A DNA stretch of 64,000 nt from IMG/VR virus record IMGVR_UViG_3300009509_000010, positions 1 to 64,000 of that record; one strand, written 5' to 3'. The notes below the pieces were generated by a model that was not told where the DNA came from, did not search any database, and saw only the letters and a program-made list of their open reading frames with translations. Below are positions 1,081-26,745 of the stretch, one piece after another; positions within the stretch are counted from its first letter, which is position 1; every line of letters starts with the position of its first letter. The stretch comes from a virus. The translations under genes were made by a program, and so were the position numbers.

Positions 1081-3555
1081 GTGCAACGGAACGTTACGTT
1101 ATCCGTATGGTCTAGTCCTATGGCCACAAGGGGCAACCTCGTTTGTGCCCCGTGGTCGGATTGGGTCAATTTGTTGTCAAACCATGTGCGGCGTCGAGAC
1201 AAGATCGGGCCGGGGTACGCTTGCGGGGTGATCCCCGAGGGCAAGCCTAGGCGTCAAGAACACGTCGAGGCCGCCGATATGGTTTGCCTTGATATAGACA
1301 AGGGGACCGACGATCAGGTTTGCCAGATAATTCAAGCGTTTAGGCCCTACGATTTCGCCCTTTATACAACCTTTACGCATGCTTATTACAAATTAGGCAC
1401 CAAGGACACCCCGGCGGGGCCGGGGGATACCAGACAAAGCAAGCTGCGGGTCCTCCTCCCTTTTGCCAGGCGGGTGACCCCCGAGGAATACTCTCGGATC
1501 TGGCCCGTGGTGATGCGGCTGGCAAGGCACCCGATCGACGGGTGCATCCAAACCCTAAACCAAGTCTATTTCCTCCCCTCGGCCATGCCGGGGGCCCCGG
1601 TATTGGCCCAAGCCAACCAAACCGGCCGGTGGCTCGATCCCGACACCCTTTTGGAGCTCGCCGAGGCCCCCACCGAACCCACCGCCCCCACCGAACCCAC
1701 CGCCCCCTTGCCCTCCGAGGAGGTGCTCGATCAGGTGGACGCGATCGTGCGCAAGCTTGCAAAAATGCTGAGATCGCACCCTCTCAAGGCGGCGGCCAAC
1801 GCCTTGATCAACGGGCAATCCCTCGACTTTGGGGATGGCCGACATGACACGATCTTGCGGCTCACCGGGTGGCTTGCGTTCAAGACCGAGGCGGATCCCT
1901 TGGCCCCCGAGGTGGTCGAGGCTTTGTTTTCCAAATCGGTGGAAACCATGCGGCGGGAAAAGCCGGGCGACATGGCCGGGGTGACAACCGAGGCCGCGGT
2001 GAGGGCCTACGAGACCGCGATCACCAAGGCCGTCACCGCCAAACAAAAGGAGCGGGTCGAGGCCCAAGCAAAATACGCGGGCCCCCGGTCACCGGAATGG
2101 CCCCCCGAGGCGATCGAGCGGTGTGCGCAGCTTCAAGAGAGCACCCCCGACGAGCTCGCCTATATTATCCAGCGGGACCGATCCCACTACATTTTGCAGC
2201 CGTCCGGATACTTTTCGGGGCCGTTTACAAAAGAGGACGCGATCGTCGAGATCACCCAAGCCCTAGGCAAGTCGCCGATCAGCCTATACGAGACCAAGGG
2301 CGACGGGTTTAGACCTCGGAGCTTTTCCGAGATTGTCAGACACTACGGCGAGATCGCCCAAGAGGTGGTGGCCGACCTCGCAACGCAACGCAGCTTTTAC
2401 GATCGCCCTACCCGGACAATTCACGAGGCCGTTTGCCCTCTCAAGGCGAGGACCCCGGCCTATGATTCCAATATCGATCAATATATCCGCCTTTTTGCGG
2501 GGACCGAGGCCAACTATAACAAGCTCCTCGATTGGATGGCCTGCTGTCCCGACCTCACAAAAATGTTGTGCGCCCTAACAATCAAGTCGGACCCCGGGAC
2601 GGGCAAAACCTTGTTTGCCCAAGGGCTCGCCTCCTTGTGGTCCAAGGGCGGAGCCCCCGCAAGTCCCGAGGTGATCTTGGGCAACTTCAACGAGGACCTG
2701 ACACGTTGCCCCCTTGTTTTCGCCGATGAAAAATTGCCCAAGTCCTACCGGTGGGATTCGGTGACCGCAAAGCTACGGGCCGAGATCGCAAGCTTAGTCC
2801 GGACCCTCAACCGAAAGTATTACTCACCGGTAGGCCTACATGGATCCTTGCGCTTCATTCTCGCGACCAACAACCCGATGATCCTTGCCTCGAATATTTC
2901 GACCTCGGCCGATTTGCATGCGGTGGCGGTTCGGTTTCTCTATATCGAGCCCGATCCCGAGGCCGAAAAATACCTCCTCCGGTTTGACTTCGAGACAAAG
3001 GACCGCTGGCGAACCGACGGGATCGCAAGTCACGCGCTTTGGCTCCAACAAAACCGCGAGGTAGTGCCCACCGGGCGGTTTTGGGTTACGGGCGATATCG
3101 ACAAAATGCACCGCCTCTTGGTGACCTCGAGCGATTGGAACAGTTGGATCTGTGAGTGGGCGGTTAAAGGCCTGCTCGACGGGTACCGCAAGATCGAGCA
3201 AAACCAAGAAACGGTCGGCCGGGTGGTGGTGCAGGATGGCAAGCTCTACATAAACACCAACGCGATCACCGACGGGTGGCAACTTTACACCAACTATCCC
3301 CACGTGGCGCCCGACCCCCGGCGGATTGCCACCGCCCTACGGTCGATCGCGAGTGACCCCAAGCCGGTCCAAGTCCGGACCCATGGCACCCGGTATCGAT
3401 ATTTCGAAATTGACCTCGGGCACCTAATCGCGTGGGCCGACGAAAAAGGGATCAGCTCCGAGGCCGATATTCATTTAGCGATTGCCCGAGGCCCGGCGGA
3501 GCTCCCCAAGGTGATCGATTTCAACGCTAAGCTAAAAGGAAATGAATACCAATGA
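1081..3555 (+). CDS. Primase-helicase (AEP-like primase plus DUF5906-type helicase)
   Basis: This 824-residue protein should prime and unwind DNA at the phage fork. The N-terminal part has archaeo-eukaryotic primase-like motifs: LDID at 70-73 (metal-binding D71, D73), TTFTH ending at H100, then KLRVLLPF and NQVYFLPS. A Pro/Thr-rich linker (repeated APTEPT) follows near 200. The C-terminal part is a P-loop helicase: G506-T-G-K509-T510 as Walker A, FAD549E550 as Walker B, and ATNN as a sensor-like motif. The GTG start at 1081 follows a GGGGG stretch at a good distance; an ATG at 1120 is possible. Its stop overlaps the thyX start. A shortened copy of its helicase domain lies at 4160-4675. Confidence 0.85.
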   Translation: MQRNVTLSVWSSPMATRGNLVCAPWSDWVNLLSNHVRRRDKIGPGYACGVIPEGKPRRQEHVEAADMVCLDIDKGTDDQVCQIIQAFRPYDFALYTTFTHAYYKLGTKDTPAGPGDTRQSKLRVLLPFARRVTPEEYSRIWPVVMRLARHPIDGCIQTLNQVYFLPSAMPGAPVLAQANQTGRWLDPDTLLELAEAPTEPTAPTEPTAPLPSEEVLDQVDAIVRKLAKMLRSHPLKAAANALINGQSLDFGDGRHDTILRLTGWLAFKTEADPLAPEVVEALFSKSVETMRREKPGDMAGVTTEAAVRAYETAITKAVTAKQKERVEAQAKYAGPRSPEWPPEAIERCAQLQESTPDELAYIIQRDRSHYILQPSGYFSGPFTKEDAIVEITQALGKSPISLYETKGDGFRPRSFSEIVRHYGEIAQEVVADLATQRSFYDRPTRTIHEAVCPLKARTPAYDSNIDQYIRLFAGTEANYNKLLDWMACCPDLTKMLCALTIKSDPGTGKTLFAQGLASLWSKGGAPASPEVILGNFNEDLTRCPLVFADEKLPKSYRWDSVTAKLRAEIASLVRTLNRKYYSPVGLHGSLRFILATNNPMILASNISTSADLHAVAVRFLYIEPDPEAEKYLLRFDFETKDRWRTDGIASHALWLQQNREVVPTGRFWVTGDIDKMHRLLVTSSDWNSWICEWAVKGLLDGYRKIEQNQETVGRVVVQDGKLYINTNAITDGWQLYTNYPHVAPDPRRIATALRSIASDPKPVQVRTHGTRYRYFEIDLGHLIAWADEKGISSEADIHLAIARGPAELPKVIDFNAKLKGNEYQ

Positions 3556-4163
3556 TACTAGTTAGCCAATCGTATGAGATATTGACCCCGATCGACGGTG
3601 ACCGGATCCTAAAATCAATCGAGCGGGCCGGTCGGACGTGTTACAAGTCCGAGGACAAGATCACCGAACACTCGGCCAAAAAATTCGTCGCGATGATCTT
3701 GGCCCGTGGCCACGAGTCGGTGATTGAGCATGAATCGATCTCGGTAAAATTCACAACCGATCGCGGGGTGTCCCATGAGATCGTGCGCCACCGTCTCGCG
3801 TCATACTCCCAAGAGTCAACGCGCTATTGCCGATACGAGGGCGAGATCCAGGTTATTGGCCCCCCGGGGCTCAACGAGGAGACTCGCGAAGTATGGCTCC
3901 AGGCCATAGGCGTGGCCCAAGGAGCCTATCAACGACTTTTGGACTATGGCGTTACACCTGAGATCGCGCGGTCGGTTTTGCCGAATGCCCTCAAAACCGA
4001 GATTGTCATGACCGCAAACCTTCGGGAGTGGCGGCATTTTTTCAAGCTCCGAACCGCAAACGCCGCACACCCGCAAATGCGCCAGCTAACACGCCCCCTC
4101 CTCGCCGAGCTCCAAGAGAGAATACCGGTGATTTTTGATGGCGTGGGAGATATCGAGAAATGA
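3552..4163 (+). CDS. thyX: Flavin-dependent thymidylate synthase ThyX
   Basis: ThyX makes dTMP from dUMP using FAD, NADPH and methylenetetrahydrofolate. The 203-residue length is typical. The signature RHRxxSxxxxSxR is present as R79-H80-R81-L-A-S84-Y-S86-Q-E-S89-T-R91, followed by a conserved C-terminal region with EWRHFFKLR and HPQMR. It overlaps the primase-helicase stop by four bases (ATGA) and the next gene in the same way, so it belongs to the replication operon. Phages carry it to raise the dTMP pool, or to bypass a host ThyA. Confidence 0.97.
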   Translation: MILVSQSYEILTPIDGDRILKSIERAGRTCYKSEDKITEHSAKKFVAMILARGHESVIEHESISVKFTTDRGVSHEIVRHRLASYSQESTRYCRYEGEIQVIGPPGLNEETREVWLQAIGVAQGAYQRLLDYGVTPEIARSVLPNALKTEIVMTANLREWRHFFKLRTANAAHPQMRQLTRPLLAELQERIPVIFDGVGDIEK

Positions 4164-12910: not shown

Positions 12911-14803
12911 GTGGTGGTGATTGCCTTTGACCTCGAAACCGACCGGTTTCGACCGGGGCTAATGGCGCCCCCTCCGGTGTGTTTGTCTCACGCCCACGGC
13001 GAGGCCTCGGGCCTCAAAGTGGGCGGTGAGATCACAACCTACGCCGCATCAATTTTCGAGCACGCCCTCGAGGGCCACGCGTGTGTTGTGGGCCATAACG
13101 TGTCCTACGATATGGCGGTTTTGCTTGCCCACTGTCCTGAGCTCGCCGATTTCATTTGGGAGCTTTACGCAACGGGCCGAGTTCGGTGCACCATGGTGAG
13201 GGAAAAGCTGCTCGATATTGCCGAGGGGACACACGGGGGCGAGTGGGACGCAACGGGCGAGAAAAAGATCAAGAAAAACTATGATCTAGCAAGTATTGTC
13301 CTCAGGAAATGGCACGAAAAACGGGACAAAACAACTTGGCGGACCGGTTACGGCGAGCTTGCCCACGTGCCCGTCGAGCAGTGGCCGGCGGGGGCTGTGG
13401 AGTATGCGATCACCGACGCCACCGACGCCCTCAGGCTGTACAACGAACAAGAGGCCCGAGCGCACAAAATGCGTTACGGGTTACCGGATCAAGGCTCGCA
13501 AACTCGAGCGGATTTTGGTTTACGTTTGATGTCGGTGTGGGGGATCCGGACCGATGGTCATAGCGTTGATAAACTCAAGGAGGCCACCGATAGACGTTTC
13601 GAGGAGCTCAAATTTGACCTACAAGCGGTGGGCCTAGTCCGAACCAAACAGACACCCAAGGGCAAGGAGTCAAAAAACCAGGCCAAGATCCGGGATTTGG
13701 TCGAGCGGTCCTATTCGGGGCCGAGTATCCCTCGAACTGATAAAGGCTCGGTCAAAACGGATGCAGACACCTTGGAGCTTTGTGACGATCCTTTGGCCGC
13801 GGTTTTGCTCGAATATGTGAGCCTTGAAAAAAGCGCCGGGACGTTTATCAACAAGCTGCTCGAAGGGGTCGATGTGCCGATCCACCCCTCATTTAACGTG
13901 TTGGTGAATTCGGGCCGCACAAGTTGTTATAACCCAAACTTGCAACAACAACCGCGGGTGCCCGGGGTGAGGGAGTGTTTTAGGCCTCGAGACGGGTGGG
14001 TTTATATTGCGTGCGACTATGACAGCCAAGAGCTGAGGACGTGGGCCCAAGTGTGTCTCGACCTCACCGGGTCGAGCACCCTTGCCGAAAAATACCAGGC
14101 GGATCCCGATTTTGATCCACACCTCGATTTTGCTGCGGGACTTTTAGGCCTCGACTATTCCGAGGCCCAACGGCGGAAAAAGCAAGGTGACCCAAAAGTT
14201 AAAGAGTATAGGCAACAAGCTAAGCCTGCGAATTTTGGGTTTCCTGTTGGGATGTCGGCCAAAACGTTTCTGACCTATGCCCGGGGCTATGGGTTGATTA
14301 TCGACGAGGACCGGGCCAACAAGTTGCGCCAAAGGTGGTATAAACAATGGCCCGAGTCACAAGATTATTTCAAATTGATCAATCAACAAGTGGGCCAAGC
14401 CGGTGTGGGCGATATCGTCCAACTACGATCGGGCCGCAAGCGGGGCTTGTGCCGCTACACGGTGGCCGCTAACAGCTATTTTCAAGGCCTTGCGGCTGAC
14501 GCCAGCAAGCTGGCCCTATGGCACGTTTCGAGGGCCTGTTATCAAGACCGAAAGTCACCGTTGTTTGGGTGTCGGCCGGTGATTTTTTTGCACGACGAGA
14601 TCATAATGGAATCCCCCGAGGCCTACGCCCACCTAGCGGCCCCCGAGCTCGAGCGGGTTATGGTCGAGGCAATGGCGCAATTCACGCCTAACGTGCCATG
14701 CCGCGCCACCGCGGCATTGATGCGACGGTGGGCCAAAGGGGCCGAGCCCGTCTATATCAACGGTCGGTTGGTGCCCTACGAGGACGTGAGGGGTGCGGCA
14801 TGA
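12911..14803 (+). CDS. polA: Family A DNA polymerase with 3'-5' exonuclease
   Basis: This 630-residue replicative polymerase lacks a 5'-3' exonuclease. Proofreading motifs: D7-L-E9 (Exo I), N63xxxD67 (Exo II), Y165xxxD169 (Exo III). Polymerase motifs: motif A D369-Y-D-S-Q-E374-L-R376, motif B R434xxxK438xxxF442-G-F-P-V446-G447, motif C H561-D562-E563. The O-helix tyrosine of Escherichia coli Pol I (Y766) is V446 here, and motif A has DYDSQELR instead of DYSQIELR, as in other phage branches. The first of three consecutive GTG codons is taken as the start. The resolvase gene overlaps the end (ATGA). Confidence 0.96.
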   Translation: MVVIAFDLETDRFRPGLMAPPPVCLSHAHGEASGLKVGGEITTYAASIFEHALEGHACVVGHNVSYDMAVLLAHCPELADFIWELYATGRVRCTMVREKLLDIAEGTHGGEWDATGEKKIKKNYDLASIVLRKWHEKRDKTTWRTGYGELAHVPVEQWPAGAVEYAITDATDALRLYNEQEARAHKMRYGLPDQGSQTRADFGLRLMSVWGIRTDGHSVDKLKEATDRRFEELKFDLQAVGLVRTKQTPKGKESKNQAKIRDLVERSYSGPSIPRTDKGSVKTDADTLELCDDPLAAVLLEYVSLEKSAGTFINKLLEGVDVPIHPSFNVLVNSGRTSCYNPNLQQQPRVPGVRECFRPRDGWVYIACDYDSQELRTWAQVCLDLTGSSTLAEKYQADPDFDPHLDFAAGLLGLDYSEAQRRKKQGDPKVKEYRQQAKPANFGFPVGMSAKTFLTYARGYGLIIDEDRANKLRQRWYKQWPESQDYFKLINQQVGQAGVGDIVQLRSGRKRGLCRYTVAANSYFQGLAADASKLALWHVSRACYQDRKSPLFGCRPVIFLHDEIIMESPEAYAHLAAPELERVMVEAMAQFTPNVPCRATAALMRRWAKGAEPVYINGRLVPYEDVRGAA

Positions 14804-17813: not shown

Positions 17814-19280
17814 ATGGGCGAGCCGATCCCATTGTTACCTACCGGTGACAAGCTGGCCACGGCGGGCCGGGATGCATTGATCGACTATTTCGATCATTGC
17901 AAATCAATGGCCAACGAGTGGATTTATCGCCAGGTGGTGGAAAACCAACGCGTTGATATTTTGGCCGCGATCCTTGGTTATTCTGTTCAACCGTTTCACC
18001 TGGCCCTAATGAAGTTTCAGATCGAGCACCCGGACAATTTGCAGCTTTGTTTTCGAGGTGCGGGCAAAACCACCACGTGTACCGTGACCCGGGCGATCTT
18101 TATGATGATCCGAAACCGGGACATCAGGATTTTGATCGCGAGCAAAACCAAGGGCAACGCCGAGGCTTTTTTGAAGGAGATCAAGGGCCACCTCGAGGAA
18201 AATTCTCGGTTGATCGAGATCTTCGGGGCCTTTTACGATCCCAACTTGGTGGGTAAGTGGGACAATACCGAGATCGAGATCCTTGGCCGCAAACGCAAAT
18301 CAAAAGAGAGCACGATCACGGTGGTTGGTGTTTCGGGCGCGGTCGTTTCAAAGCACTATGATGCGATCTTGGCCGACGATTTGGTGGATGAGGAAAACGC
18401 CCGAACCAAGTATATGCGGGACCGGACAAAGCAATGGTATTACCAGACCCTTTACCCTACGCTCGAGCCACCCGAGCTGGGCCACCTACACCGGGGCGAG
18501 TTTCACCGACTTGGAACACGATACCATTTTGACGATTTATGGGGCCACCTATTGGCCAACGAACTCAAGGACGATCACCAAATCATCCCAGCGCTCGACG
18601 AAAAAGAGCGCTCGCCTTGGCCTGAAAAGTACCGTCCCGATTGGTTCAAAAAGAAACGCGAGATATCAGGGACGATTATTTTCAACGCACAATACCAGTG
18701 TGACACCGAGGCGATGAAAGGGGCGATCTTTCAATATGATGATTGCCAGCTCGTTGACGCCGATAACGTGCCTTTGAATCTCAAAAAGTTTATGGGGGTG
18801 GACCTCGCGATCACGGAATCGGAGCAAAACGACTTGTTTGTGATCGTGGTGGGTGGGTTTGATTCGGTCGAAAATTGTTACGTGTTAGACTATTTCCAAG
18901 GTCACCTTCGTTTTGCGGCTCAGACATTGGCGATCAAACGGTACTACAAAAAACATGATCCGATCCGAGCGGCGATTGAGACGAATAGTTACCAGGCGGC
19001 CCAATATCAACACCTGAAAGACGAAGATCAAAGCTTGCGTTTGATGCCTTGCCATACCGAAAAAGACAAAATTTCACGAGCTTGGAAATTGTCGTCGAGG
19101 TTCGAACGTAAGCAAATGTTTTTCGTCAAGGGTGGCAATATGCATCATTTGATCGAGGCGTTGGTTTTGTTTCCAAGCCACCGCTACAAAGATCCGTTTG
19201 ACGGGCTCGACCTCATGATCCGGGCGAGCAAGTTACGACGTCGCCGCAAACGGCGGGGTCGAGAGCCGGGGTTGATGTAA
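17814..19280 (+). CDS. terL: Terminase large subunit
   Basis: The packaging motor. The 488-residue protein has Walker A RGAGK85T86, Walker B AILAD188D189 followed by acidic DEEN, and an RNase H-like nuclease domain with D330 (GVDLAIT), E389 (AIETNS) and D463/D466 (PFDGLD). It couples ATP hydrolysis to DNA translocation through the portal and cuts the concatemer. It ends on the first base of the portal gene's ATG (TAATG). The Arg/Lys-rich C-terminus may contact the portal. Confidence 0.95.
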   Translation: MGEPIPLLPTGDKLATAGRDALIDYFDHCKSMANEWIYRQVVENQRVDILAAILGYSVQPFHLALMKFQIEHPDNLQLCFRGAGKTTTCTVTRAIFMMIRNRDIRILIASKTKGNAEAFLKEIKGHLEENSRLIEIFGAFYDPNLVGKWDNTEIEILGRKRKSKESTITVVGVSGAVVSKHYDAILADDLVDEENARTKYMRDRTKQWYYQTLYPTLEPPELGHLHRGEFHRLGTRYHFDDLWGHLLANELKDDHQIIPALDEKERSPWPEKYRPDWFKKKREISGTIIFNAQYQCDTEAMKGAIFQYDDCQLVDADNVPLNLKKFMGVDLAITESEQNDLFVIVVGGFDSVENCYVLDYFQGHLRFAAQTLAIKRYYKKHDPIRAAIETNSYQAAQYQHLKDEDQSLRLMPCHTEKDKISRAWKLSSRFERKQMFFVKGGNMHHLIEALVLFPSHRYKDPFDGLDLMIRASKLRRRRKRRGREPGLM

Positions 19281-21031
19281 TGTCCGACGCACAAAACCAA
19301 ACGAGCAACAAAGCCAACAAACGGGCTTTGAAGGCCACCATTATCGGCGTGCAAAAACAAGCGAAAACCTCGGTGGAGCCGGGACAGTCCAAGGCCCTCG
19401 CCGAGGACCCGTTCGAGGCGTTGACCTCCGAGGGGCGGCTGATCGAGCCCCCGTTCGATATGCTCACCTTGGCCATGTTGCCCGAACATTCGAGCGAGCT
19501 CGGCCAGTGTATTGAAGCAATGGAGGTGAATATCGAGGGGTTTGGTTATCGGTTTGTGCCCCGGATCCGCTCCGATGTCGATATGGCCGACGTAAACCCC
19601 GATTTGATCGAGGCAATGCGCCGGGAACGGATCGATTTGGTCAACTTTTTTCAATACGTTTCGGGTCGAAACAGTTGGACCGAAACAAGGCGGCGGTTGC
19701 GGCGAGACCTCGAAACGACGGGAAACGGTTATCTCGAAGTGGTTCGCAATGCAGCTGGTAAAATCCAAAGCCTAAATCACTTGCCATCCTATCAAATGCG
19801 GCTTGGTGGCCTCGACCAGGAGCCCATAAAGGTGTCATTGCCGATCCACGAGCTCCAAGGGGATGGCTCGGTGCGGATCGTTCGGGTGCCCTCGTGGGAG
19901 CGGTTTCGACGATACGCCCAAAGCAGGTCGTTGATCCTTCGCCATGCCACACATGTGGGCAAGTATGCGATCCGGTGGTTCAAAGATTTTGGTGACCCCC
20001 GTGTTTATGATTACGAGACGGGCGAGGAGGTTAGGGGCGAGGAGATCGCCAAACTCCCACCGGAGCGGCGGGCCAACGAGCTGATCCACTGTAAGCTTTA
20101 CAGCTCGAGGAGTCCCTATGGTTTACCCCGAACGATTGGCAACCTACTTTCGATCTTTGGAGCTCGAGCGGCTGAGGAGATTAACTATAATACATTTAAA
20201 TGCAATAATATCCCCAACATGTTGCTTTTGGTGTCAAACGGGCAGCTTACCGAGGGGTCGATCGAGCGAATTGAGGACTTTGTTGAATCCCAAATCCAAG
20301 GCTCAGACAACTACAGCAAATTTCTATTGATTGAGGCCGAGGCTCTTGGCGAGGAGGGCGAGGATACCGGACACGTCAAGATCGCGATCGAAAAGCTGAT
20401 CGACAGTCAACACAAGGACGCCTTGTTCCAAAATTACTCGGGCAACGCCGATGATCGGATCCGGCGGGCGTTTAGGTTGCCACCGATTCACGTGGGCAAG
20501 GCGGACGAATACACCCGAGCCACCGCCGAGACCTCGCGAAGGTTGGCCGACGAGCAAATTTTTGCACCCGAGCGGGATGCCCATGACGATGTGATCAACC
20601 GGTTGGTGTTTCCCGACATGGGGGTGATTTACCACAAGTATAGGTCAAACACTCCAAACACCACCGACAACGCCGAGCTTGTGAAGATCCTTGCGGGTGC
20701 CGAAAAAACCGGCGGAATGACGCCGAGAATTGCCCGGATTATGCTCGAGGACATTTTGGGTCAGGATTTGCCCGGTTTCCCAAAGGAGTTTGTGGACAAA
20801 GCCGATATGCCATTTTCGCTTTTGATGGCCGAGGCGGTCAAAAACAAGGCCGACCCCACCGAGCCGGGCCAACAGGTGACGGCGATCAAGGCCCTCGACC
20901 TAATCGAAAAACTCACCGGCGGCGAGCTTGCCGAGGCCGAGGAGGCCGAGCTTGCAAAAACCGCGGTGGCGATCAATCGACATTTTGAAAAGCGGTGGCG
21001 AGCTGAGGTCAAAACGCAGCTTGCGGGATAA
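19280..21031 (+). CDS. Portal protein (PBSX/SPP1-like)
   Basis: This 583-residue protein forms the dodecameric DNA channel at a capsid vertex. The segment ELGQCIEAMEVNIEGFGYRF is characteristic of PBSX-family portals, as is LIHCKLYSSRSPYGLPRTIG. The long N-terminal tail is polar. The ATG overlaps the terL stop and the stop overlaps the next ATG, giving the standard terL-portal-MuF order. Confidence 0.9.
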   Translation: MSDAQNQTSNKANKRALKATIIGVQKQAKTSVEPGQSKALAEDPFEALTSEGRLIEPPFDMLTLAMLPEHSSELGQCIEAMEVNIEGFGYRFVPRIRSDVDMADVNPDLIEAMRRERIDLVNFFQYVSGRNSWTETRRRLRRDLETTGNGYLEVVRNAAGKIQSLNHLPSYQMRLGGLDQEPIKVSLPIHELQGDGSVRIVRVPSWERFRRYAQSRSLILRHATHVGKYAIRWFKDFGDPRVYDYETGEEVRGEEIAKLPPERRANELIHCKLYSSRSPYGLPRTIGNLLSIFGARAAEEINYNTFKCNNIPNMLLLVSNGQLTEGSIERIEDFVESQIQGSDNYSKFLLIEAEALGEEGEDTGHVKIAIEKLIDSQHKDALFQNYSGNADDRIRRAFRLPPIHVGKADEYTRATAETSRRLADEQIFAPERDAHDDVINRLVFPDMGVIYHKYRSNTPNTTDNAELVKILAGAEKTGGMTPRIARIMLEDILGQDLPGFPKEFVDKADMPFSLLMAEAVKNKADPTEPGQQVTAIKALDLIEKLTGGELAEAEEAELAKTAVAINRHFEKRWRAEVKTQLAG

Positions 21032-22050
21032 TGCCAGTTGGAAACCTGTTCGATCAGGTCCGGGCCACCGACGAAACCGTGGCCAAGGCCCTCGGGATCT
21101 CCGAGGTGGCCCAGATTGCTCGAACAGAAACCAGGCTGAGGGAATACCTACTAGCCGAATGGAATAGCCGAGCTCGTGAGGCCGTAACCCAGGCGGCGGC
21201 GGGTGCTCGAGGAGGCGCAATCCCAAGCAAGATTTATCGGGAAGTGTCTGGAATTTTAAAGCCGTGGGGACCCGAGGTTGCCCCAAGGGTCGGGCGAGAG
21301 CTCGGAAAAATTTACCGGTTGGCCAAGGTGGCCGGATGGCGCAAGGCCACCGGGCAAACCAAGGCCCCATTGACGTATGACACACCCAATTTTGAACAAA
21401 TGGCCAAGGCCGCACCTCGTGATGGTTTCGCGGTTTTGCCCACGTTTGACAAGCTCGACACCGACACAATTGACGCCCTAGCCAATCAACAAGTTTTTTG
21501 GCTCGCGGCCCACTACGAGGAAAACGTGGGCGCAATGATCGCCTCGACTGTCTCGGAGGTGATGGCCCAAGAGGGGAGAAACCGTCAAGTTGCGGCGGCG
21601 GTTTTGCGGGAACGGCTAGCCGAAACCCTTGGGCAAGTGGTGACCCCGGCCGGGTGGCATGGGTCAACGCGGCAATATATGGAAGGGGTGGCCGCTAATG
21701 CTGCCACCGTTGGGCGTGCCTATGGCCAAGTGGCCGCGTTCAACGAGGCCGAGGTTATTCGCTACGAGATCGTCAACCCAACCGACGAGCGAACATGCCC
21801 GGTTTGTTCGCACATGGATGGCAAGGTATTTTCGACCGAGCATGCAAACCGCCAAGTGGCGGCCGAGCTCGAGGCCGAAAACCGGGAAGATATAAAGTCA
21901 ATTCATCCGTGGTATACCTACGCTAAGCTAACCGATATCAGCCCCAAGGCGGGTAACGTGAGCCCCCAAGACTCCGCCGCGCTAGCCAAGGCCGGTTACC
22001 CGTTGCCACCGTTCCATTTTCGGTGCCGTTGCGCGATCGATGTGAGTTAG
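21031..22050 (+). CDS. MuF/SPP1 gp7-like head morphogenesis protein
   Basis: This 339-residue minor head protein has the family signature at its C-terminus: PTDERTCPVCSHMDGKVF, then PPFHFRCRCAID, a metal-binding Cys/His region. It is normally incorporated with the portal and may be ejected with DNA. There is no toxin-like extension after the MuF domain. It overlaps the portal stop. Confidence 0.85.
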   Translation: MPVGNLFDQVRATDETVAKALGISEVAQIARTETRLREYLLAEWNSRAREAVTQAAAGARGGAIPSKIYREVSGILKPWGPEVAPRVGRELGKIYRLAKVAGWRKATGQTKAPLTYDTPNFEQMAKAAPRDGFAVLPTFDKLDTDTIDALANQQVFWLAAHYEENVGAMIASTVSEVMAQEGRNRQVAAAVLRERLAETLGQVVTPAGWHGSTRQYMEGVAANAATVGRAYGQVAAFNEAEVIRYEIVNPTDERTCPVCSHMDGKVFSTEHANRQVAAELEAENREDIKSIHPWYTYAKLTDISPKAGNVSPQDSAALAKAGYPLPPFHFRCRCAIDVS

Positions 22051-22059
22051 GAGGCCACC

Positions 22060-24648
22060 ATGCAAACCTCGATTACCTCGACTCGAAGGCGAGCCCGCCG
22101 GGCCCGCGTTGCCAAAACCATAACTACCGACGCGGTCGCCACAAGCGGCAAACTTGACGCCGCGAGTTTGCCCGGTGGTAGCGGGATCACCGAGTTGTTT
22201 GGTCTAGCCGTGACCAAAACCGCAGCGGACAAAATTTTTGCAGGTAAGGTCAAGGCGATTGCTAAAACCACCGATCACAATTTTGCAGGCCAGTTAGTGT
22301 TGATGTTGGTCAAAGGGCAAGCGGTGGGCGAGGTGGAGTTTGGCGAGCGGCTCGACTCCAAAACGTGGGCCGTTAAAACCACCAAGATTTTTGACCGGCC
22401 CAAGGCCACCAACGTGCCCGAGGCCGCCGAGGGTGTGGTGGGCGGGGTGCGGGTGCTCGAACGCCGCAAGGCGACATCAATTGATGAGCCGGTAACAAAA
22501 CAACGGGCTAGGGCCTACAACCCGAGCCGCGTGGTTGACCGGGTCCTTTTGTCTGACGTGCGAACCCTTGCCCAATGGGGCGAGGAGGTGGCGTTGAAAA
22601 AGGCCCTCGCCGAGGTAAAGCGCCGTGGTTTGGAGGTCGAGCGGCCCGATAAACTCGAGCTTGCCCCGGACAGTGAGATCGAAACCTTCGCCACCGTCGA
22701 GCTCGTGGCAGCTCACCAAGCGATCCATGTCAACAAGGGGTGGAGCTCCGAGGATATGGTGGGGACGCATGCCCGTATCGTGGCGGAGCTCGCCGATCGA
22801 GGCGTGCCACACCCCGAACCACCGCCGGGGTTGGATGCTCAATCGGTTGTTTTCGAGCCGGCCCGAGTGGCGGTTCTAAAATCAGCGGCCGAGGAGGCCC
22901 TTGGGGAGATCGTGGCAGCGGTCGAGCGATACCCCGTGTTGGTCCACAAGCGGGTCGAGGGGCGGCCGGTTACGGTCAGCAAAGCCAAGGATCAGGTCAA
23001 GGTGGTGGCCGAGGACGGGGCCGATTTAACCGCCGAGGTTCCCGCGGTCGTTGAAACGATCCGAGCTCTCAAATCCGAGGCGGTGGAGCTCGAGGGGGTT
23101 CTCGAGCCATGGCATGGGGGCGAGGTTTTCCAGGTTCAAGATCTCAGCTATGACGGCCGAGACCTCCGGGATTGGCCCGTTAGCAAGCGGCTCGAGCGGC
23201 TCGCCGAGCTTGGGATCCCGCAAGCTACAAGCGCAATTCCGAGCTTGACGGCCCCCGTCAACGAGTTACCCCCGTTGGAGGCGACCACCGCCGAAACGCT
23301 CGAGCGGGCGATCCGTGTGGTCAAACGGTTGCCCGGTAGTGTTGGGGCCGTGGTCAAGCCCGCCGAGTCGGTGGACCCGGGCGAATGGTTGGAGCTCGAG
23401 GCCGAGCCCGTAACCAAGCTCGAATCAAAAGGCCCTCAAAAATTTGTATTGTGGGCAAATCAACTTTTGGTGGGCGACCGAGCGGGAAAATTGGCCGAGC
23501 GGTGGATCTTGGATTCCACCGACGTCGAGACCACCGAGCAAATCGCCAAACGGGCGGCCCCCGTTCCCAAGGATGCTTTGTCCGCCGGTGTCGGTGGGGT
23601 GACTGATCACGGTGAGGTCGAAACGGGGGCGGTCAAACCGTGGTTGCGGGAATATTTTTTGCGAGGCCAAACAACGGGCAACCGGTTGTTGATCCGCAAG
23701 CTTACGTTTGGTGAGCTGCAAAAGGCCCAACATTCATACACCCAATGTATGGCATGCAAGGCGGCCCCCGAAATTGATGTTTTGTGGGCCGACGGGCGTG
23801 GGCGGGCGTGGTTTTGTAAGGGTTGTTATCCAAAGTGGCTCCACAAAGGGGGCGGCTCCAAAGACCTCGAGGTAATCGGTACCAAAGCGATTATCGGCGG
23901 TCGAGCCCCAGCGAAGTATTCGGACCGTCATAATCGGGTGACAACTACCAAGGCCGCCGAGCCACACCCTCTCGGTGGTTGGCTTGTGGTGCGGGCAAAA
24001 GACCCGACGCCTTCGGTCCTTACCGGTGAGGCCGTAACCAAACGGTGGATCCCGCCGCTTGGTGTGTCAGCTTTGCCCGAGGTGGTGGCCGAGCAGGTGC
24101 CTACCGAGCTCGCCTATTGGCGGGCCCAGACATTGGCTGAGGCTCGAGAGCTCCGAGATCAGCTTGTGTCAAAGATCGACACAAAGGAGATCGAGCTCGA
24201 TTTGACCACAGTTTACACTGCCAAACCATCAAATCCGATCACCGAGGTGTCAACCAATGACACCGAGGGGACGGCGGATCTCTTTGTTCCTATTGCCAAA
24301 ATTGACACCGACCGGCAAATTGTGACAGGGATTGTATTAGAGCCGGGCGAGGTTGATGCTCAAAACGACACCGTTAGCGATGAAGTTATCGAGCGGGCCT
24401 CGATCAATTTTCTTTCCCGGTATAATTCCGAAACCCAGCTAGGTTTGATGCACAAGGCCTTTGGAGACATAGGCCTGCAACTTGCCGCTAGTTGGGTAGC
24501 ACTGACAAATCAAACGCTTGGCAAAAAGAAAGTTAAGCGGGGCTCGTGGCTGATGTCAATGAAGGTTATCGATTCGAAACTTTGGGAACGCGTCAAAAAG
24601 GGCGAGTTTACCGGATTTTCGATCGGTGGCGTGGCCAAGGTGCGTTAA
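22060..24648 (+). CDS. XkdF-like prohead protease with degenerate DNA-ligase-like domain
   Basis: This 862-residue protein follows MuF, where the prohead protease is expected. Residues about 745-862 match the XkdF-type serine protease (FVPIAKIDTDRQIVTGIVLEPGEVDAQ... with H798 and S811 as likely catalytic residues). Residues about 290-450 follow the motif order of an ATP-dependent ligase adenylation domain: RVEGR at 298-302 (motif I, usually KxDGxR), LEG at 344-346 with E349 (III), FQVQDLSYDGRDL at 357-369 (IIIa), VGAVVK433 (IV), WLELE at 443-447 (V, usually WxKxK). Key Lys and Asp residues are changed. An ASCH-like start and a zinc ribbon (C563, C566, C586, C589) flank it. The family parallel is by eye. 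Confidence 0.75.
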   Translation: MQTSITSTRRRARRARVAKTITTDAVATSGKLDAASLPGGSGITELFGLAVTKTAADKIFAGKVKAIAKTTDHNFAGQLVLMLVKGQAVGEVEFGERLDSKTWAVKTTKIFDRPKATNVPEAAEGVVGGVRVLERRKATSIDEPVTKQRARAYNPSRVVDRVLLSDVRTLAQWGEEVALKKALAEVKRRGLEVERPDKLELAPDSEIETFATVELVAAHQAIHVNKGWSSEDMVGTHARIVAELADRGVPHPEPPPGLDAQSVVFEPARVAVLKSAAEEALGEIVAAVERYPVLVHKRVEGRPVTVSKAKDQVKVVAEDGADLTAEVPAVVETIRALKSEAVELEGVLEPWHGGEVFQVQDLSYDGRDLRDWPVSKRLERLAELGIPQATSAIPSLTAPVNELPPLEATTAETLERAIRVVKRLPGSVGAVVKPAESVDPGEWLELEAEPVTKLESKGPQKFVLWANQLLVGDRAGKLAERWILDSTDVETTEQIAKRAAPVPKDALSAGVGGVTDHGEVETGAVKPWLREYFLRGQTTGNRLLIRKLTFGELQKAQHSYTQCMACKAAPEIDVLWADGRGRAWFCKGCYPKWLHKGGGSKDLEVIGTKAIIGGRAPAKYSDRHNRVTTTKAAEPHPLGGWLVVRAKDPTPSVLTGEAVTKRWIPPLGVSALPEVVAEQVPTELAYWRAQTLAEARELRDQLVSKIDTKEIELDLTTVYTAKPSNPITEVSTNDTEGTADLFVPIAKIDTDRQIVTGIVLEPGEVDAQNDTVSDEVIERASINFLSRYNSETQLGLMHKAFGDIGLQLAASWVALTNQTLGKKKVKRGSWLMSMKVIDSKLWERVKKGEFTGFSIGGVAKVR

Positions 24649-25502
24649 TGGCGACAAAAGATCAACTCGCAAAGGCTCGGGAACTCTTGGATCTAGACGT
24701 CCGGGAGGTCTCGTTGGTTGACCGGCCCGCAAACTTGCGGCCGTTTTTGATTGTGAAACGTCAAACCGAGGACCACCTCGGTGAGTTTGAGATCGAGCCC
24801 TCGGTTGTCGAGTGGCTGGAAAAAGTGGCGGTGTCCCCTGGGGCCCCCACCGAGTCAATTCGGGCCTTGACGGCCGTTTTAGCAGGAGGTGAACCCGTGG
24901 ACCCCAAACAAGAGACCAAAGATCAGGCTGAGGACCAAGCCGTGGATCAGAATGCCACCGCGGCCGAACCCACCGCCGAACCCGTAACGAAAACCGAGCC
25001 GGCGGCCGAACCCGAGACCGTAACCGAGGCCGAGCCGGCGGCCGAACCCGTGGCCAAGAATGAGCCTATGGCGGAGCCAGATCCGGACGATCAACCCATG
25101 GTGGTGATCAAGCGGGATGGTTCGATCCATGTGTCCGGACAACAGGTTCAAAAAGCCAAGACCTTTGGCAAGGCGAAAACCGCCACCTTGCAAAACGCGG
25201 TTAGTGCGTTGGCCAAGTTGCTTGGTGACGTATCCGAGGACGCACTAAAGGCGGCCATGTTGCCCTATTCGGATCCAACGAAAAAAGTGGACACCACCAA
25301 GGCCGTGGATCCGGAACAGACAAACACCGCGGATCCGATTGAGTTGATCACCAAGGCGGTGGCCTCGGCCCTCGAGCCAATCACCAAGCGGCTCGACGAG
25401 ATCGAGAAAACTCGCAATCCGTCTCAGTCCGTCGAGGGTGACGGCGGGACCGAAAGCCGACAAACCAAGGTCAACAAATCAATTTGGGCCGGGGTGCTCT
25501 AG
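24648..25502 (+). CDS. Putative scaffold protein
   Basis: This 284-residue acidic protein lies directly between protease and capsid, where scaffolds are found. It starts with EVSLVDRPANLRPFLIVKR, a motif usual next to XkdF-type proteases, then has a Glu/Pro/Ala-rich repeat region (TEPAAEPE-type) and a helical C-terminus ending SIWAGVL. The ATG overlaps the protease stop (TAATG). Low complexity and position suggest a scaffold cleaved during maturation. Confidence 0.7.
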   Translation: MATKDQLAKARELLDLDVREVSLVDRPANLRPFLIVKRQTEDHLGEFEIEPSVVEWLEKVAVSPGAPTESIRALTAVLAGGEPVDPKQETKDQAEDQAVDQNATAAEPTAEPVTKTEPAAEPETVTEAEPAAEPVAKNEPMAEPDPDDQPMVVIKRDGSIHVSGQQVQKAKTFGKAKTATLQNAVSALAKLLGDVSEDALKAAMLPYSDPTKKVDTTKAVDPEQTNTADPIELITKAVASALEPITKRLDEIEKTRNPSQSVEGDGGTESRQTKVNKSIWAGVL

Positions 25503-25545: not shown

Positions 25546-26745
25546 ATGTCAGGTATCCCAAACGAAGAGCTGATCGCCAAAGCGGTAATCACAACCGACG
25601 CGTTGGCCGCAAATGGCAAACTCAATGATAAGCAGTCCGACATGTTCATCGATTACGTGATCGACGAGTCGGTTTTGAAAAACAACGCCAGGGTGGTCAA
25701 GTTTCGCAACGAAAACTTGAACATTGACAAGATCGGCGTAGGTGGCCGGGTGGCCTACCCCAAAGCTGAGGCCGCGGATCCGGGCCACCGCCGAGGCGTG
25801 TCAACGAGTCAAATTCAGTTGACACCACGAGAAATCATCGTCCCGTTCGAGATCGGTGACCTGTTCAAGGAGGTATCCCTTGAGGCACCCGAGCGAATCG
25901 AGGACCACATTATCAAAATGATGGCCGCGCAACTGGCCAACGATATGGAAGAGCTCTATATCCTTGGCGATACGGTGGGGCCAGCGATCCTTGAGTCGGA
26001 ATATCACGACAACGGAAGCTCGACCCAATACGTCAAGGACAGCTATTTGGCCTTGGCCGACGGGTGGAGCCGGTTGGCCGACGGGGCCAATGTGGTGGAC
26101 GCGCAAGGAGCCAACATTGGGCTGAGCATTTTCGGCCAAATGTTGCGAGCCATGCCCACCAAATTCCGACGCAACAAGCGGGCCCTCCGGTGGTTCCTGA
26201 GTCCCGACCTTTGGCAGCTCTACAGTGAAAAACTGAGCACCCGCGCCACCGCGCTCGGTGACTCCGCCGCGGGCGGGGGCGATCATGGCCCCTATGGTGT
26301 CAGTGCGGTTGAGGTGCCTTTGTGGCCGTTGCAACCCAAGGTGGTGCAACATGTGCAATTGAACGGGACCACCGCGGTCGCGTTGCGGTTTGGGCCGATC
26401 TCTAGCGTGGTCGTTTCAACCGAGACGCTTGGAGCGACACCCGAGACCCCGTTCGTTGAAACGACCGATTATGTTCTCGACACAACGGCGGGCACGATTG
26501 CCAGAACCGGTGGTGGGTCGATCGGTGATGGTGATACGGTCAAAGTGACCTATGATGCCAATCCGCAAGTTTTGCTAACCCATATGAACAATTTCATCGT
26601 GGGTATCGGTCGGGATATCAAGATCGAAAAAGACCGCAATATTTACAAGGGCGTGAACGAATACGCGATCCACGCCCGCGTTGCGGTTCAATTCGAGGAA
26701 CTGACGGCGATCGTCAAAGCCAAAAACATCGGAACAGGCGTATAA
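25546..26745 (+). CDS. Major capsid protein (HK97 fold)
   Basis: This 399-residue protein has a strong ribosome-binding site (GAGGAGGAAAG) fitting high expression. The N-terminal arm and E-loop-like region (RVVKFRNENLNIDKIGVGGRVAY) and spine helix (IEDHIIKMMAAQLANDMEELYILGD) are typical of HK97-fold capsids. Residues about 285-345 (SSVVVSTETLG...TVKVTYD) look like an inserted small beta domain that may decorate the capsid surface. It follows the protease and scaffold genes in the usual order. Confidence 0.85.
   Translation: MSGIPNEELIAKAVITTDALAANGKLNDKQSDMFIDYVIDESVLKNNARVVKFRNENLNIDKIGVGGRVAYPKAEAADPGHRRGVSTSQIQLTPREIIVPFEIGDLFKEVSLEAPERIEDHIIKMMAAQLANDMEELYILGDTVGPAILESEYHDNGSSTQYVKDSYLALADGWSRLADGANVVDAQGANIGLSIFGQMLRAMPTKFRRNKRALRWFLSPDLWQLYSEKLSTRATALGDSAAGGGDHGPYGVSAVEVPLWPLQPKVVQHVQLNGTTAVALRFGPISSVVVSTETLGATPETPFVETTDYVLDTTAGTIARTGGGSIGDGDTVKVTYDANPQVLLTHMNNFIVGIGRDIKIEKDRNIYKGVNEYAIHARVAVQFEELTAIVKAKNIGTGV

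Follow-up and report, generated by a model that had tools for sequence, protein, structure and literature searches.

An XkdF-type prohead protease with a conserved, catalytically degenerate DNA ligase domain in a viral head operon

Polyvalent proteins are large multidomain proteins that phages with portal and terminase genes encode together with their head genes. The passages of Iyer et al. (2017, PMC5512222) that deal with their architecture list Pol-beta nucleotidyltransferases (NTases), 2H phosphoesterases and DNA methyltransferases among their domains; place an assemblin-like (assembly) peptidase, where one is present, at the C-terminus; argue that this peptidase processes the polyvalent protein during virion assembly; and record an inactive domain, PBECR in the MuF protein of Mu. 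Term searches of the same text returned no mention of XkdF or ASCH, a ligase passage on RNA ligases, and a single match for uracil, in a reference title; a term search of a phage ligase survey (PMC8455567) likewise returned no protease-fused ligase. The general concept, a phage protein of many domains that ends in an assembly protease, is thus already published. What appears to be new, as we found no XkdF-ligase or other protease-ligase fusion described in the literature searched, is the union of XkdF with a DNA ligase and a LigD-like phosphoesterase, and a pseudo-ligase derivative of it that is under selection.

The protein described here resembles several known systems in part. PBSX XkdF, PhiCh1 gpB and the Lactococcus ul36-type proteins share its C-terminal protease domain and its position among the head genes, whereas its ligase-bearing N-terminal region has no counterpart in known XkdF/Peptidase_S78_2 phage proteins among the matches listed; in these, known-phage records match the target at residues ~727-862 only (~135 residues). 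The archaeal and eukaryotic ATP-dependent DNA ligases (Thermococcus, Pyrococcus, LIG1) have the same NTase fold and motif order as the target, but the target lacks their nucleophilic Lys, OB domain and N-terminal DNA-binding domain, and is predicted to be catalytically incompetent. LigD, the bacterial NHEJ ligase, combines phosphoesterase and ligase modules, and relatives of the target pair the same two; in the relatives, however, the ligase precedes the phosphoesterase and both are joined to a capsid protease, and in the target both are degenerate. Protein AJP62006 of the archaeal virus ANMV-1 (KP703175, L014, 3200-5800), annotated merely as “ATP-dependent DNA ligase”, unites a Pol-beta-like NTase, a ligase with intact KxDG, a phosphoesterase-like domain and the WLxx...SALP module of Table 1 in one protein; it has no XkdF domain, and the annotated prohead protease of that virus is a separate gene. 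Compared with polyvalent proteins in general, the target retains the protease as its only recognizable enzyme, its ligase being dead.

The protease and its head operon

The window is the whole stretch of DNA analysed, 64,000 nucleotides, being positions 1 to 64,000 of IMG/VR record IMGVR_UViG_3300009509_000010 (78,781 bases). The ORF delimited in an earlier sequence-only reading proved correct in start (ATG at 22060), stop (24646-24648) and length (862 residues); its domains and neighbours are collected in Table 1. The order portal, MuF-like, protease, scaffold, major capsid surrounds both intact-ligase and dead-ligase versions of the protease and is common to most of the ligase-family loci compared. 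Capsid orthologues adjoining ligase-bearing proteases are 55-93% identical to that of the window, and in the closer ligase-bearing loci the portal is 55-60% and the capsid 62-72% identical; gene order and these identities together identify the target as an orthologue of the ligase-bearing proteases. Two orthologues (L002 and L003) share 70% identity and an unchanged architecture with it, and the reading frame is open in all three. The Phage_Mu_F match of the MuF-like protein has E 7e-6, slightly below the curated cut-off, and the start of the scaffold gene overlaps the protease stop as TAATG. In short, the target is a multidomain protein whose gene, like those of polyvalent proteins, belongs to the late head genes of a phage with terminase and portal. 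Genes elsewhere in the window code for a thymidylate synthase of the ThyX type (3552-4163) and for a family A DNA polymerase that includes an exonuclease (12911-14803); relatives sought in genome contigs for host assignment were not found.

Table 1. Features of the head operon and of the 862-residue protease (window coordinates)
Feature	Coordinates	Strand	Residues	Basis or remark
Terminase and portal genes	17814-21031			upstream of MuF-like gene
MuF-like head morphogenesis protein	21031..22050	+		Pfam Phage_Mu_F, PHROGs, synteny; directly upstream of protease
XkdF-type head maturation protease with long N-terminal multidomain region (P0001)	22060..24648	+	1-862	ORF, Pfam, orthologues
ASCH/PUA-like N-terminal module (tentative)	22180..22488	+	~41-143	aligns with N-terminal modules of L004/L005/L010
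Conserved helical box ELxxxHxxxH...HAxxVxELxxRGxxHPxPPxxLD	22699..22836	+	214-259	
Inactivated ATP-dependent DNA ligase NTase domain, without OB	22912..23424	+	285-455	homology, fold, dN/dS
R298 codon, place of motif I nucleophilic Lys (KxDG to RVEG)	22951..22953	+	298	alignment
Degenerate motif III, VELEGVLEPW for [F/L]DxEIExW, catalytic Glu to Val	23083..23112	+	342-351	alignment
Degenerate motifs IV (GSVGAVVK for GSEGxVxK) and V (EWLELE for W[VI]K[YF]HN)	23335..23406	+	426-433 and 442-449	alignment
LigD-phosphoesterase-like remnant	23425..23700	+	456-547	alignment with core-bearing relatives
Zinc ribbon CxxC...DVLWADGRGRAWFCxxC	23746..23826	+	563-589	conserved Cys in alignment
Conserved module WLxxRPxDxTPxVL...PPxGxSALP...QVP...YW	23974..24126	+	639-689	also in ANMV-1 AJP62006
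XkdF serine protease domain	24292..24639	+	745-860	Pfam PF14550 E 1.2e-25; invariant columns
Probable scaffold gene	24648..25502	+		junction sequence, synteny, phrog_3017 (C-terminal part)
Major capsid-type virion protein	25546..26745	+		phrog_1623 E 4e-68; synteny

The XkdF protease is confined to the C-terminal end, as first read from the sequence; the PF14550 match scores 90.4 bits against a curated cut-off of 24, and the gene lies between the portal/MuF and scaffold/major capsid genes. His798 and Ser854 are invariant in the alignment columns of this domain and are probably its catalytic residues.

Several further modules precede the protease. The helical box is also present in L004, L005, L008-L010, L029, L038, L050 and L098, and the WLxxRPxDxTP...SALP...YW module is common to the fused proteases. 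The zinc ribbon, proposed earlier, is real and conserved (C563-C566 and C586-C589; 85-89% identity in close relatives), and it is basic. The phosphoesterase remnant has lost the H...HxDxR core, which is kept in the aligned relatives and missing throughout the target clade; the GxxExGAxKPWxxEYFxRG...R end alone is kept. The ASCH-like N-terminus of the sequence-only reading fared less well: Pfam ASCH matches L004 only, at E 0.094, the target has no match, and a PDB profile search for ASCH gave nothing useful. An Arr-ms match at residues 142-200 (E 0.043) was set aside as accidental.

Descent of residues ~285-455 from a DNA ligase

Searched alone against Pfam, PHROGs and PDB sequences, the target gives no ligase match, and none to DNA_ligase_A_M above the cut-off; homology was therefore established through intermediate relatives. 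DNA_ligase_A_M is found in the same protein in L008-L010 and many others (E 4.5e-19 to 6.1e-23; best match in the wider family E 3.9e-28); PDB DNA ligases match the ligase of these relatives at E 6e-9; and the target region aligns over its full length with the L008 ligase at BLASTP E 2e-24 (30% identity across 176 residues). Profile-profile comparison (hhalign) of the target clade gives E 2.2e-24 with the intact relatives and E 5.8e-10 with the more distant ligases of other XkdF-family loci. An HMM built solely from intact relatives scores the target at 82.9 bits, whereas 2000 shuffled versions of the target reach 11.1 bits at most. A merely accidental likeness to ligase motifs, to which the absence of a direct match for the target would lend some colour, is refuted by the hhalign values, by the shuffle control and by a syntenic position identical to that of the intact ligases; we give it next to no probability.

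Structure prediction points the same way. An AlphaFold2 model of residues 259-462, built from an alignment of 19 sequences with intact ligases among them, has a pLDDT of 82. In Foldseek searches ATP-dependent DNA ligases come first (E 2.9e-10, TM 0.65) and make up the top PDB matches throughout, among the matches listed; DNA ligases likewise lead the matches in a viral structure library. The predicted fold may be partly imprinted by the intact ligases in the alignment, and the full-length AlphaFold model (pLDDT 59) was too uncertain for a domain reading. The sequence-only reading had seen here a pseudo-ligase descended from a ligase NTase domain, and had named a structure prediction, a profile comparison and a search for homologues with intact motif I as ways to examine it. 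The first two returned DNA ligases (the profile comparison by way of the relatives), and homologues with intact motif I were found in the same syntenic position; syntenic intact homologues, fold and profiles thus strongly support a common ancestry of residues ~285-455 with ATP-dependent DNA ligases and the NTase fold that goes with it.

Loss of catalytic residues and retention of the domain

Ligase motifs I (K297-R298-V-E-G-R-P303), III (342-351), IIIa (357-369), IV (426-433) and V (442-449) were located within residues 297-449 of the target, where they had first been noticed, and alignment with 34 Lys-bearing relatives confirms that R298 takes the place of the motif I Lys. Among the 38 non-redundant ligase domains collected, motif I carries Lys in 34 and Arg in four: those of the target, L002, L003 and L021. 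The Arg-bearing four have lost far more than the nucleophile: the Glu of motif III is Val in 4/4; the Glu of motif IV, present in all 33 intact domains covering the site, is Val, Ala or Arg; the aromatic residue of motif IIIa is Gln or Leu (Phe to Gln in the target clade); the Lys of motif V, present in 33/33 intact domains, is gone (Glu in the target); and the OB domain is absent from all four. In the target clade, where the motif IV Glu is Val or Ala, these substitutions include residues of the adenine pocket; in the target a stretch of ~22 residues between motifs III and IIIa and another between motifs IV and V are deleted. Several core positions are retained: the Gly of motif I, the Asp of IIIa and the Lys of IV.

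The sequence rules out that the target seals nicks in the known way, and it makes ATP binding by the domain very unlikely. The nucleotide-binding module that had been offered as one option is accordingly improbable, since essentially every adenylate-contact residue is substituted. Could the domain still be an enzyme with altered chemistry, for example a nucleotidyltransferase with another nucleophile? The retained fold and core positions are compatible with such an enzyme; with the Lys and Arg of motif I, the Glu of motifs III and IV, the Phe of IIIa and the Lys of V all substituted or lost, and no new conserved polar cluster identified, we regard it as very improbable.

Non-catalytic binding of DNA deserves more weight. 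Ligases clamp DNA between the OB domain and the NTase domain, and the target domain could be a pseudoenzyme that binds DNA ends or nicks while the genome is packaged or shortly after it is ejected, and that shields or tethers the breaks or recruits the host ligase. Descent from a nick-binding enzyme, the continued conservation of the domain and the basic zinc ribbon beside it speak for such a role; the OB half of the clamp, however, is missing, and the domain is acidic (net charge -10, pI 4.8), a composition that lends no help to the binding of DNA or RNA. On balance we consider this role unlikely, and the acidic character points mildly away from direct contact with DNA and towards protein binding or a structural role.

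The dead domain is nevertheless under purifying selection and is not decaying freely. Across the target, L002 and L003 its dN/dS is 0.18-0.21 at 76-84% identity, compared with 0.32-0.34 for the preceding linker, 0.25-0.33 for the phosphoesterase remnant and 0.07-0.10 for XkdF, all of these being imprecise Nei-Gojobori values from three genomes with dS near 1. That the domain is a functionless relic on its way out has some appeal, as the losses look stepwise (L021, with RHDG in motif I, keeps its phosphoesterase-like core intact, whereas the target clade has lost both) and the ligase is wholly absent from L004-L006; yet the frame is open in all three genomes and the domain is better conserved than the linker and phosphoesterase remnant that flank it, and we consider decay improbable. 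Of the earlier interpretation, then, the ligase-derived pseudo-ligase stands, nucleotide binding is unlikely, and a relic in the sense of decay is contradicted by the dN/dS values.

L021 looks like an intermediate state. The tree of the core leans to two Lys-to-Arg events (AU p 0.050) and the ligase tree is undecided (p 0.36); as both are unrooted, the case for a loss of catalysis, and not a gain, is made from the ligase motifs. In the 78.8 kb record no further ligase, ATP- or NAD-dependent, was found; the record is possibly incomplete, so that a separate gene may lie elsewhere. PF01068 was not found in the records of L003, L004 and L021, and it matches once each in those of L008, L010, L029 and L038, inside the protease ORF.

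A proposed cargo module of the prohead, and the wider family

We think it probable that the target is a polyvalent-type protease whose ligase became a conserved non-catalytic module, likely with a structural or cargo role in the prohead. From the homology, the syntenic intact relatives, the lost catalytic residues and the purifying selection, we infer an ancestor in which an active ATP-dependent DNA ligase and, after it, an end-healing domain similar to the LigD phosphoesterase would have stood ahead of the protease. In the target lineage the ligase would then have shed its nucleophile, other catalytic residues and the OB domain, and the phosphoesterase its core motif, while purifying selection would have retained the NTase fold as a non-catalytic module.

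Prohead proteases work inside the prohead. The protein would join the prohead interior through its protease and scaffold partners, and the protease would release or trim the N-terminal region during maturation; such entry and removal are plausible in view of the work of XkdF proteases. There the pseudo-ligase would not seal nicks but act as cargo or as a structural element, which perhaps holds on to DNA ends or a partner protein. The logic of C-terminal assembly peptidases, as set out in passages of PMC5512222, suggests that the XkdF-ligase family carries its N-terminal region as cargo, which would be incorporated into the prohead, released by cleavage and perhaps ejected with the DNA. For the intact relatives this would mean a kit for repair and modification, and for the target a folded, conserved, non-catalytic module.

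In the wider family XkdF is fused in 31/40 distinct ligase-bearing ORFs, and proteases of the family carry further domains: D12 adenine methyltransferase, C5 cytosine methyltransferase, uracil-DNA glycosylase, 2H phosphoesterase and inorganic pyrophosphatase, besides Pol-beta-like NTase and ASCH-like modules read from the sequence. By sequence, several enzyme domains share one polypeptide in the relatives, whereas in the target the protease alone is recognizably intact. In the relatives, the domain after the ligase is similar to the LigD phosphoesterase: Pfam LigD_N matches it in L006 at E 3e-4, which falls short of the curated cut-off, and a LigD phosphoesterase is its sole PDB profile match, at E 0.67.

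More tentatively, it is possible that uncultivated tailed viruses of a broad group have a kit of this sort (ligase, LigD-like phosphoesterase, Pol-beta NTase, uracil-DNA glycosylase and DNA methyltransferases) built into the N-terminal part of the prohead protease, so that maturation would both load and free enzymes that travel with the genome, and that in the branch of the target the ligase became a pseudoenzyme, with a non-catalytic role in the particle that is both new and conserved. Capsid maturation and DNA repair would thereby be linked in one polypeptide, and for the intact relatives the prediction is that their virions contain a ligase released by the maturation protease. The target is a natural loss-of-function counterpart to these relatives, its ligase domain being selected after catalysis was lost, and the contrast between them can separate the structural from the enzymatic role of cargo domains.

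Inteins commonly sit at active sites. In one XkdF-ligase fusion (L043:3170-8398) a LAGLIDADG intein at residues ~392-746 lies within ligase motif I (VQKKYDG|C...|SNHQAH), which may be taken as indirect support for a functional ligase there. Hint/intein-like matches in the MuF-position gene of L008 (1415-4150) and a LAGLIDADG domain in the portal gene of L005 (1129-4035) indicate that inteins recur in the head module.

Other combinations were seen in passing. In L079, L091 and L092 a head protease, a DNA ligase (motif I KxNG) and a uracil-DNA glycosylase are fused, which places two base-excision repair steps within one virion-assembly protein. L048:3536-7399 joins the XkdF protease to an inorganic pyrophosphatase domain and a D12 methyltransferase, and the MuF-like protein of L004 (1968-3962) has a weak PI3/PI4-kinase-like match (E 7e-6, slightly below the curated cut-off).
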